64,000 nt of DNA, from NCBI GenBank assembly GCA_022616535.1, contig JAKEEM010000021.1, positions 1 through 64,000 of the forward strand. Direction: 5' to 3'. A program made the position numbers and the translations under genes. Shown one piece after another: positions 592 through 25,693 of the stretch (its first letter is position 1; each line of letters starts with the position of its first letter). Source of the DNA: Chlorobiota bacterium (lineage in GTDB: Bacteria; Bacteroidota; Ignavibacteria; Tepidaquicellales; OLB5). Below the pieces are notes generated by a model, which did not search any database, had not been told where the DNA came from, and worked only from the letters and a program-made list of their open reading frames with translations.

Positions 592-1989
592 TTGCTTACA
601 ACTTCCGGAAATTTAAATAAGCAAATTATTCGCCTTGCGTGGCCTGTTTTTCTGCAGAACCTTGCCAGAAGTCTGGCAATTGCCATTTTAGATTCATACT
701 GGATTGGCAAAATCAGCAGCGAGCATCTTGCAGCAATTGCAGTCGGCACCTTTTTATCCTGGGGCGCGTATGCTCTGGGAGAGCTGGTTCCAATCGGCAC
801 AAACGCGCTTGTTTCACAGGCGGTCGGAGCAAAAGAAAGCGATTCAGCGAGACACATCGGAACGCTGAATCTCTTTAATTCGGTTATTTTAGGAATAATC
901 ATAGCAATTATTTTAATCCCGCTATTGCCGGTTCTTTACAGCTTTACAAATCTCGATATGGCTAAATCCGCTCTTGCAAACGATTACCTTTACCCGATAT
1001 TATTCCTGCTTCCATGCACAATTTTGTTTGAAACCGGAAGTGCGGTATTCCGCGGGCACGGAAACACTCAGACTCCATTCAGACTGCTTCTTCTTGTTTT
1101 TTCTCTTAAGGCACTGCTAAGCCCGCTGTTGATTTTCACTTTCAATCTTGGAATGAGCGGGGCTTCGATTTCCACAATGGTTTCATACGGAAGCGTCTTT
1201 ATCATTGAGCTTATACTTTTGAAAAAAGCGGGACATATAACATCGCTTAAGAAAAAGCTCAGCTCGATTATTAAAGATACAAAGTATAACCTTAAAGTCA
1301 CCAGGGAAACATTTAAAATCGGGCTGCCGCTTTCGCTTGAGGGGCTTGCATTTTCGTTCATTTACGTTTTCGTTAGCCGCTTTGTTGCAGATTTCGGCAC
1401 AACGGGGCTTGCCGCCTTGGGCATAGGGCACCGTTCGGAGGCAATTCCCTACCAGGTGGGAGAAGCATTTGCAATGACAGCCTCGATTATAGTCGGGCAG
1501 AACATCGGCGCGCGCAATGTTGAACGCGCTGAAAAAGGAGCGTGGCGCGTGCTGTTTCTTTCATGGATACCGATGGCTGTTTACGGATTTTTCCTTTTCC
1601 TTTTTCCCGCTGAAATTGCCGGGATATTCACAACTGACCGAGCCGTAATTGAAACAGCAAAGGTTTACAATTTGATTGCGGCGTTCAGTATTTTTTTTGC
1701 AATGAGCGAGCAGATTTTCACAGGTGCATTTGCCGGCGCGGGCAATTCGCTCCCCCCGCTTGTAATTTACCTCCCGCTGACTGCAATCAGAATTCCCCTT
1801 TGCGCGCTGCTTGCACCAATTTACGGAATGAACGGTGTGTGGATTGCAATATTTTCGACTTCCATAGCCAAAGGAATACTGATTGCCGTATGGTTTAAAA
1901 TAGGCAGGTGGAAAAAAAGGACATTCAAGCTTGCCAAGCAAACCGAAGCTTATATCGAATCACCCGTAGAGAAATTTGATATCAGGTAA
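592..1989 (+). CDS. MATE family efflux transporter
   Basis: 465 aa, about 12 hydrophobic segments, MATE-like N-terminus (RLAWPVFLQNL...). Confidence 0.9.
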   Translation: MLTTSGNLNKQIIRLAWPVFLQNLARSLAIAILDSYWIGKISSEHLAAIAVGTFLSWGAYALGELVPIGTNALVSQAVGAKESDSARHIGTLNLFNSVILGIIIAIILIPLLPVLYSFTNLDMAKSALANDYLYPILFLLPCTILFETGSAVFRGHGNTQTPFRLLLLVFSLKALLSPLLIFTFNLGMSGASISTMVSYGSVFIIELILLKKAGHITSLKKKLSSIIKDTKYNLKVTRETFKIGLPLSLEGLAFSFIYVFVSRFVADFGTTGLAALGIGHRSEAIPYQVGEAFAMTASIIVGQNIGARNVERAEKGAWRVLFLSWIPMAVYGFFLFLFPAEIAGIFTTDRAVIETAKVYNLIAAFSIFFAMSEQIFTGAFAGAGNSLPPLVIYLPLTAIRIPLCALLAPIYGMNGVWIAIFSTSIAKGILIAVWFKIGRWKKRTFKLAKQTEAYIESPVEKFDIR

Positions 1990-2194
1990 ATCAATTTGTC
2001 AGATTAATCAGATTTGTCAAATTTATCAGATTAACCGACTATACTTTGGCGAGGAAACCTGCCATAGGCGCCGTGCCCGAGGCAGGCGGGGGCAGACTCT
2101 CGCTCCTACAATTGTTATTCCAGACTGCGCGGGGACAAGTTTACTATTTTTTTTTTGCTTTTAATTACTCATTACTAATTATTCATTACTCATT

Positions 2195-2660
2195 AAAAAA
2201 TACCACCCAGGTGGATTTAATCCCGCACATAAACTATGTACGGGACAGGTTTTGAAAGTGGGTTTGTGACTCTGCCGCCTGCCTTGTGGGCTTACCTTGT
2301 GAGTTGGCGGTCAGTATTTGACTGCTTTGACTCAACAATATAAGCTTGAAAGCAAGCCGGTAGAAAACACATTACCGGTTCCTTCCAAAAAACCTTGTTA
2401 CGTATCCAAGGGTGAAACACCCCTCCGCAGTGGCCAGGGACAGTCTTATACCATAGAGTCGTCGCTCGGGGAGCCCATCTCTCTGCATAACCGGATAGCC
2501 CAATGAAATGCGGGTACTCCCTGAACCAAGCTCAGCCAGTTGACCCGGCGGGAAAAAAGGTTTTGGCTATTATCCTTAATTCCCCGGTGCCTGCAAAAGA
2601 CCCCCGTCAGGGTCTTCCCTCTCCCGTTTGCCCCTTTTAGGCGCGTTGAGAAACCAAACG
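2195..2660 (-). ncRNA. putative structured non-coding RNA (unidentified family)
   Basis: GC-rich region in an AT-rich intergenic gap, several short perfect hairpins (2597-2616, 2410-2422, 2357-2378, 2221-2245), minus-strand Bacteroidota-type promoter at its 5' side and a small hairpin plus T-run at its 3' side; no convincing ORF. Confidence 0.5.
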
Positions 2661-2663
2661 TGG

Positions 2664-2694
2664 CAAAATTACAACATCAAAAATCGAATGTCAA
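2664..2694 (-). promoter_or_regulatory. Bacteroidota-type promoter TTG-N20-TAATTTTG for the putative ncRNA
   Basis: Minus strand reads TTGACATTCGATTTTTGATGTTGTAATTTTG; matches TTG...TAnnTTTG. Confidence 0.55.
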
Positions 2695-2959
2695 GTGTAT
2701 TTACCTCATTAGGCACATATGAGGTGAAAGTTTGCAAGCAATTAAAAATTAGGAATTAAGAATTACGAATTGAAAAAAACAGTAGCTGTGAAAACAGAGC
2801 ACAAACAGAAAAAGCGAAGAAAATATTATAATTGCAGAAAAATTTTAAGGAAAAAGTGTTAAGAGTGCAAAATTGTTAATAACGTTCAATAAATACAGTT
2901 TTGCAATGGGGACTCTTCGGCTTCGCTTAGGGATGTTATTACATTTTAGAAACCCTTTA

Positions 2960-3005
2960 TTGCATTTTCGGGTTTTTATTATTAAATTGCCTAACAGTCG
3001 TTAGG
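2960..3005 (+). promoter_or_regulatory. promoter-like element overlapping a palindromic operator CCTAAC-AGTC-GTTAGG
   Basis: TTG (2960-2962)-N20-TAAATTG (2983-2989), then perfect 6-bp-arm inverted repeat at 2990-3005, 7 bp before the TetR start. Confidence 0.5.
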
Positions 3006-3012
3006 ATAAAAC

Positions 3013-3594
3013 TTGGAAAAATCACGCAAAGAGCAAATAATTCAATCAGCGGCAAAGCTGTTTAAGGAAAAAGGCTTTGAGGCGGCTTCTATGAGGGATA
3101 TTGCAAGAACGCTCGGCATTGAGGCGGCATCGCTCTACAGCCACATTAAATCCAAGGATGAGATACTTGAACTCATCTGCTTCCGAACCGCAGATGAGCT
3201 GATTAAGGCAATTGACGAGGTAAACGATTTGTATTTTAATGCCGAAGAAAAGCTCAGCATGGCGATAAAAAACCACGTGAAAATAATTACGGAAAATCTT
3301 GACTCCTCATCGGTTTTTTTGCGTGAGTGGCGGCACTTGACAAAGCCAAAACTTAAGGAATTTATTTCGCTTCGTGACAGGTATGAAAACGGATTTAAGC
3401 AGATTCTGGTGAACGGTGAGAATGAAAATGTATTCGATGCACCGGATAAAAAATTCGCAGTGCTCACGATTTTATCGGCATTGAACTGGCTGACTGAGTG
3501 GTACAATCCAAACGGCAAAATGACGCCGGACGAAATCGCAGAGCATTTAACAGAGTTTATTTTAACGGGACTTAGAGTTAAATCGGTAGTATAA
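3013..3594 (+). CDS. TetR/AcrR family transcriptional regulator, probable Paa regulator
   Basis: N-terminal TetR HTH (IIQSAAKLFKEKGFEAASMRDIARTLGIEAASLYSHIKSKDEI); TTG start; directly upstream of paaA. Confidence 0.9.
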   Translation: MEKSRKEQIIQSAAKLFKEKGFEAASMRDIARTLGIEAASLYSHIKSKDEILELICFRTADELIKAIDEVNDLYFNAEEKLSMAIKNHVKIITENLDSSSVFLREWRHLTKPKLKEFISLRDRYENGFKQILVNGENENVFDAPDKKFAVLTILSALNWLTEWYNPNGKMTPDEIAEHLTEFILTGLRVKSVV

Positions 3595-25478: not shown

Positions 25479-25560
25479 GGAGAGCTCGCATAATGGTATT
25501 GCAGCGGTCTTGAAAACCGCCGGGCGCAAGCCTGTGGGGGTTCGAGTCCCTCGCTCTCCG
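25479..25560 (+). tRNA. tRNA-Ser (anticodon TGA)
   Basis: GGAGAGC/GCTCTCC acceptor, GCGGT-CTTGAAA-ACCGC anticodon arm, long variable arm, GGTTCGAGTCC T-arm, G discriminator. Confidence 0.93.
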
Positions 25561-25569
25561 CAAGTTTAT

Positions 25570-25588
25570 CAAGGGGTTTAACCCCTTG
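25570..25588. repeat. perfect palindrome CAAGGGGTT-T-AACCCCTTG between the tRNA genes
   Basis: 9-bp arms; near-copy at 20757-20775 region. Confidence 0.75.
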
Positions 25589-25603
25589 TTCTATTTAGCT
25601 TTT

Positions 25604-25690
25604 GGAGAGGTGCAGGAGCGGTTGAACTGGCCACCCTGGAAAGGTGGTATACCGGCAACGGTATCGTGGGTTCGAATCCCACCTTCTCCG
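25604..25690 (+). tRNA. tRNA-Ser (anticodon GGA)
   Basis: CCACC-CTGGAAA-GGTGG anticodon arm, long variable arm, GGTTCGAATCC, CTTCTCC acceptor. Confidence 0.93.
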
Positions 25691-25693
25691 CAA

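Follow-up and report, generated by a model that had tools for sequence, protein, structure and literature searches.

The gap between a MATE gene and a tetR gene in the 64,000-nt stretch of DNA analysed here (the window) holds what appears, on well-supported grounds, to be a real RNA gene of a new family. We favor, with a probability of roughly 0.6, the interpretation that this gene belongs to a dispersed cassette specific to the lineage, which spreads non-autonomously and yields a structured RNA that acts in trans and is under selection. The preliminary description of the locus had suggested a structured RNA with its own promoter that it could not identify, possibly representing a new ncRNA class, and this suggestion was supported by negative Rfam searches and by compensatory pairing in homologous copies. 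Sequence comparison establishes the multicopy state, the common promoter and terminator, the covarying structure, the strand, and the insertion at a site that relatives leave empty; the transcription of a ~460-nt minus-strand RNA may be inferred from the promoter and terminator.

Position, signals and coding content of the locus

The gap between MATE and tetR extends from 1990 to 3012 (1,023 bp) and has a GC-rich block inside it, as outlined by the following features.

592 to 1989, plus strand: MATE gene
3013 to 3594, plus strand: tetR, with TetR identity confirmed by Pfam
2195 to 2661, minus strand: structured ncRNA, ~467 nt, with a predicted start at ~2661 (C/A after TAATTTTGC)
2664 to 2694, minus strand: promoter of the Bacteroidota type, TTGAC...TAATTTTG, found in every copy reaching that far
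2700 to 2728, minus strand: operator-like upstream palindrome of the TTCACCTCAT-N9-ATGAGGTAAA type
2195 to 2215, minus strand: intrinsic terminator TCCACCTGGGTGGTATTTTTT, retained in nearly all copies

The coordinates originally given for a ~460-nt locus between these two genes were correct, as was the statement that base composition turns GC-rich there: the GC fraction is 0.506 in 2195-2664 versus 0.388 for the window and 0.30 just upstream of the promoter, and is 0.405 between the GC-rich block and the MATE gene, on the downstream side. The signals proposed for the two ends of the RNA were likewise found, namely a minus-strand promoter, TTG(2694)-N20-TAATTTTG(2664), and a far-end hairpin followed by a tail, CCACC-TG-GGTGG-TATTTTTT (2214-2195). 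All copies long enough to include the promoter, palindrome and terminator also have them, and in the window copy ~6 bases separate the palindrome from the -33 element on its downstream side. The short open frames overlapping the locus had been called unconvincing, a judgment borne out by a comparison between copies, in which the longest open frames change both place and sequence and no ORF is conserved across the RNA copies. Elsewhere in the window, two tandem tRNA-Ser genes, with anticodons TGA and GGA, are located at 25479-25691.

Dispersed copies in the genome

The genome that contains the window comprises 2.89 Mb in 77 contigs, in an assembly that is ~98% complete. A blastn search of this genome returned the window locus along with many diverged matches, with identities from 66% upwards. 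Most matches are at contig ends, and many contigs break inside copies, in keeping with the tendency of repeats to break an assembly. Counting 5′ ends that carry both palindrome and promoter gave 16 copies (C13, 17, 20, 21, 24, 29, 30, 33, 41, 47, 55, 62, 66, 67, 70 and 72), and counting from the terminator (3′) side gave ~15, two of which are truncated (C51 and C24e); because the halves could not all be joined, the copy number is approximate. Homology between copies begins at the palindrome that precedes the promoter and continues to the end of the terminator. The subfamilies are ~30-50% different, yet nearly all copies appear intact, the two truncated ones aside. Genes beside the copies are unrelated from site to site, the downstream gene being convergent in most cases and the upstream gene lying in either orientation. 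Multiple dispersed copies lacking an ORF, as found here, are one mark of a non-autonomous mobile element.

Beyond the RNA itself, the copies share flanking material, which in the window is arranged as follows (no strand assigned).

2735 to 2778: low-complexity TTAATTNNTAATT tract upstream of the RNA; other copies carry a TAACTCAATGAACTT tract of about equal length instead
2779 to 2886: T-rich upstream block, common to all copies in nearly fixed register
1990 to 2194: downstream part of the insertion, consisting of an AT tract (2150-2194) and a small-repeat mosaic, with pieces shared with other copies

In all copies a T-rich block of ~110-190 bp is located upstream of the palindrome and adjoins a TTAATT-like or TAACTCAATGAACTT-like tract; within the 64-kb window, tracts of the TTAATT and TAATGAGTAAT patterns are confined to the RNA locus. 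The 200-250 bp that follow the terminator are a mosaic of small repeats common to the copies in a piecewise manner. Because the flanks are low-complexity tracts, neither exact cassette ends nor a target-site duplication could be defined. Small palindromic repeats (e.g. CCCGAATTTATTTCGGG and CTGCCTGC...GCAGGCAG) have also been inserted within the C21, C58, C70, C48 and C28 copies, chiefly in peripheral loops.

A covarying fold read from the minus strand

The minus strand of the locus is predicted to fold more stably than its dinucleotide shuffles (z = -3.3, with 0/100 shuffles equally stable), and the plus strand gave z = -2.6. Folding stability by itself is weak support for a structured RNA, and it is the other copies that provide the proof, through comparison of the following elements.

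2597 to 2616, minus strand: 5′-domain hairpin AAGACCC/GGGTCTT; AAGACTC/GAGTCTT in C70, GTCCGA/TCGGAC in the main type
2441 to 2542, minus strand: most conserved core, matched by covariance model R1 at 104 bits
within 2441 to 2542, minus strand: core motifs GCGACGACTC (invariant) and GTATAAGACTG (near-invariant)
2525-2517/2473-2465 and 2511-2508/2488-2485, minus strand: nested core helices with compensatory changes
2314 to 2451, minus strand: long-range helix GUAU-AA-GACUG (2451-2441)/CAGUC-AA-AUAC (2324-2314)
2393 to 2411, minus strand: helix CCTTG/CAAGG; TCACG/CGTGA in most copies, CCTCTG/CAGGGG in C72
2357 to 2378, minus strand: helix CCGGTA/TACCGG; CCGTTGT/ACAACGG in other copies
2275 to 2310, minus strand: 3′-domain helix CCGCC/GGCGG around a AAGGTAAGCCCACAAGGC stretch; CTGCC/GGCAG elsewhere
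2221 to 2245, minus strand: exchangeable CCCG hairpin before the terminator; other sequence in other copies, absent in C9s

The core was aligned in eight copies by sequence only (alignment A1). RNAalifold recovered the nested helices from this alignment, with 8/16 core pairs changed on both sides, as in TTCAGGGAG/CTTCCTGAG versus TCTTAAGAG/CTCTTAAGG and GCAT/ATGC versus CACG/CGTG. There were 18 double-change cells versus 6.2 +/- 1.9 after shuffling, a level reached in 0/500 shuffles, and the covariation score was 0.498 versus 0.265; the structure came from the same sequences, so that these shuffle counts do not represent probabilities. Pairing was found in 96.8% of cells, falling to 37-50% once one arm was slid by 1-3 columns. 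For five helices, the arms of a single copy pair at ~100%, versus 0-64% when arms are exchanged between copies, with few independent events behind the covariation because the copies represent just four or five sequence types. The 3′-domain helix shows a C-G, U-G, U-A series across copies; it was assessed from explicit arms, as some rows of the MAFFT alignment of the 3′ domain (A2) have the first arm in the wrong place. In the diverged copy C72 the long-range helix is GUACAAGAUUG/CAAUCGAGUAC. Little weight is given to GACTG/CAGTC, GUAY and TTGGAAG/CTTTCAA, which are nearly or fully constant from copy to copy. Composites made by joining 5′ and 3′ half-copies served for folding and segment comparison only.

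The call for covariation in homologues was thereby answered, as compensatory pairing is present in other copies, both in the core and in further helices. All four hairpins originally listed are present in the sequence, but one of them, GGGTG-aaa-CACCC (2410-2422), is private to the window copy; the related copies lack it, and the helix conserved at that site is CCTTG/CAAGG (2411-2393). Covarying helices together with the lack of a conserved ORF would place the product, as judged from comparison of the copies, in the general kind of large structured bacterial ncRNAs.

The core also has U-G pairs at fixed columns, which would be C-A on the opposite strand, and this identifies the minus strand as the one that encodes the RNA. 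This property, along with the retention of promoter, terminator and helices whose arms are >110 nt apart, disfavors a purely DNA-level reading, according to which the locus is a REP- or MITE-like repeat with hairpins that serve a DNA transposase (e.g. Y1/RAYT acting on single strands) and an incidental transcript. There are five Y1_Tnp genes in the genome and small palindromes inserted inside and beside the copies, as such a repeat might predict, and REPINs show that non-autonomous repeat populations can persist in bacteria (PMC8049555). An association with IS200/RAYT was considered and rejected, since the surroundings of the five Y1 genes have no similarity to palindrome or cassette beyond marginal short matches. 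We consider the DNA-repeat explanation quite improbable.

Insertion of the cassette in this lineage

The gene order tadA-MATE-tetR, with paaA where the locus reaches that far, is kept in at least eight genomes of the same family, the fetched stretch of one relative ending short of tadA. The MATE proteins of these same-family relatives are 77-81% identical. In six relatives the MATE-tetR gap is ~130-270 bp, AT-rich and devoid of the RNA, so that occupied and empty forms of the site are both represented, at one of the ~16 loci. The conserved gene order and the RNA-free gap in relatives, versus 1,023 bp in the window, suggest that the cassette inserted in this lineage, loss in all relatives being the less likely alternative, and the empty site implies that it arrived once this lineage had separated from the sister genus. 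At the site of the RNA cassette, L141 and L143 have an unrelated pair of small genes that looks like a toxin-antitoxin module, and L137 has other sequence after MATE.

The RNA might instead serve the host, as a regulatory or structural RNA amplified for dosage in the manner of rRNA and some sRNAs, its copies having arisen by duplication and gene conversion under one regulator, with no selfish element involved. The intactness of nearly all copies despite ~30-50% difference between subfamilies would fit this explanation, as would the palindrome at every copy's promoter, which suggests co-regulation. However, the copies are situated at unrelated loci amid small-repeat mosaics, and the RNA is absent from every relative searched, members of the same family included, which would be odd for an important host RNA. 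We therefore regard amplification of a host RNA as possible but rather unlikely, and prefer the non-autonomous cassette.

Searches for known RNAs and for relatives elsewhere

Rfam 15 (4227 families) gave nothing relevant at the locus, either at the gathering threshold or at E <= 10, the one chance match lying outside the RNA. For four other copies, E <= 1 also yielded nothing relevant, the two sub-threshold matches again being chance matches outside the RNA. The initial failure to match tmRNA, RNase P, 6S or SRP RNA by eye agrees with these results and with ARAGORN, which found no tmRNA in the window and just the two tRNA-Ser genes. That the locus encodes a diverged form of a known RNA (RNase P, tmRNA, 6S, SRP RNA, a riboswitch, or a group I or II intron) is extremely unlikely: its size and complexity are in a fitting range, but, beyond these searches, its occurrence in ~16 scattered copies and its insertion at a locus whose syntenic counterpart in relatives lacks the RNA are a strong argument against a diverged housekeeping RNA. 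Two specific ideas were also discarded, namely a CsrA sponge, since the GGA count is about as expected, and a group I intron, for which S/R-like letters spotted by eye had neither pairing nor Rfam support.

With blastn, no RNA copy was found among 39 relatives outside the genome of origin. Covariance model R1, applied to 296 genomes of the class and 396 of the phylum under stricter filters that may lose weak relatives, likewise gave matches confined to that genome. The two exact-pattern matches in GTDB (L044 and L045) were attributed to chance, since they have no significant alignment to any copy and their context reads like coding DNA. A pattern scan of IMG/VR and searches of phage and plasmid collections were empty, and literature searches on Ignavibacteria ncRNAs turned up nothing relevant.

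A model for the cassette and its relation to known systems

We propose a non-coding cassette of ~0.7-0.9 kb, whose cargo would be a stand-alone RNA gene. RNA polymerase would start at the Bacteroidota-type promoter and stop at the intrinsic terminator, and a factor bound to the conserved palindrome probably controls the promoter. The ~460-nt RNA is predicted to form a near-invariant core surrounded by several covarying helices. It may act in trans, and a ribonucleoprotein or RNA-only particle is its most likely working form. Cassettes, which encode no gene for their own mobility, would spread non-autonomously to intergenic sites, and most would remain intact because the RNA is selected. The RVT_1 reverse transcriptase domain (PF00078) was not found in the assembly, which disfavors spread driven by a reverse transcriptase.

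HEARO is a structured RNA class with mobile behavior that is tied to IscB/TnpB-like genes. Unlike HEARO, the window cassette has no ORF inside or consistently beside it, and no Rfam match. Eukaryotic SINEs are dispersed non-coding elements in which a small RNA gene carries its own promoter, and the likeness of the cassette to them is one of analogy only, as it has bacterial polymerase signals and its genome has no detected RVT_1. A bacterial counterpart of SINEs, i.e. a selfish dispersed element whose sole product is a structured RNA needed for its own propagation, with a dedicated operator switching all copies together, would be the most novel interpretation, and is an unlikely one. The large ornate RNAs OLE, GOLLD and ROOL, whose functions are poorly understood, resemble the window RNA in being long, stand-alone, highly structured and defined by comparative covariation (PMC12286853). 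The window RNA differs from them in its ~16 dispersed chromosomal copies and in having no Rfam match to any of them. Furthermore, phages and prophages close to tRNA islands are the setting of GOLLD and ROOL, but no match to the window RNA came from the phage, viral and plasmid collections that were searched. Like REP, REPIN and MITE-like elements, the cassette forms a population of non-coding units that are scattered between genes and depend on trans-acting factors (PMC8049555). REPINs are short hairpins, but the cassette is a complete RNA gene with an operator-like palindrome, a promoter, a ~460-nt covarying fold and a terminator, and the arrangement that marks REP/REPIN of RAYT, the same palindromes flanking a RAYT gene, is not seen for it.

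The ~16 paralogues constitute an internal comparative data set within one genome. They raise the question of whether bacteria host RNA-gene repeats that persist through their RNA product, and they warn that lineage-specific, assembly-breaking repeats can hide RNA genes.

Other occurrences of the palindrome

The palindrome is present at the 16 copies and at a few other promoters, which suggests that it may be a regulator site; in the genomes of the family, the operator motif occurred at no more than chance level. On contig C64, palindrome and promoter also precede two paralogous HTH-like proteins (L096:1599-2135, plus strand; L096:7973-8764, minus strand), which begin MYFNEELNKD..., have no Pfam match, and have N-terminal relatives that are multicopy in the sister genus. 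In C17, C20 and C72 a second palindrome is located exactly 229 bp upstream of the first, and in C70, where a repeat has been inserted, the two are 323 bp apart. A second dispersed element family, in C11, C18 and C52 (L097, L095 and L098), has the same palindrome and a common block, CAACTTTACATAAT...GGATTT, its C52 member being situated upstream of apparent nuo genes.
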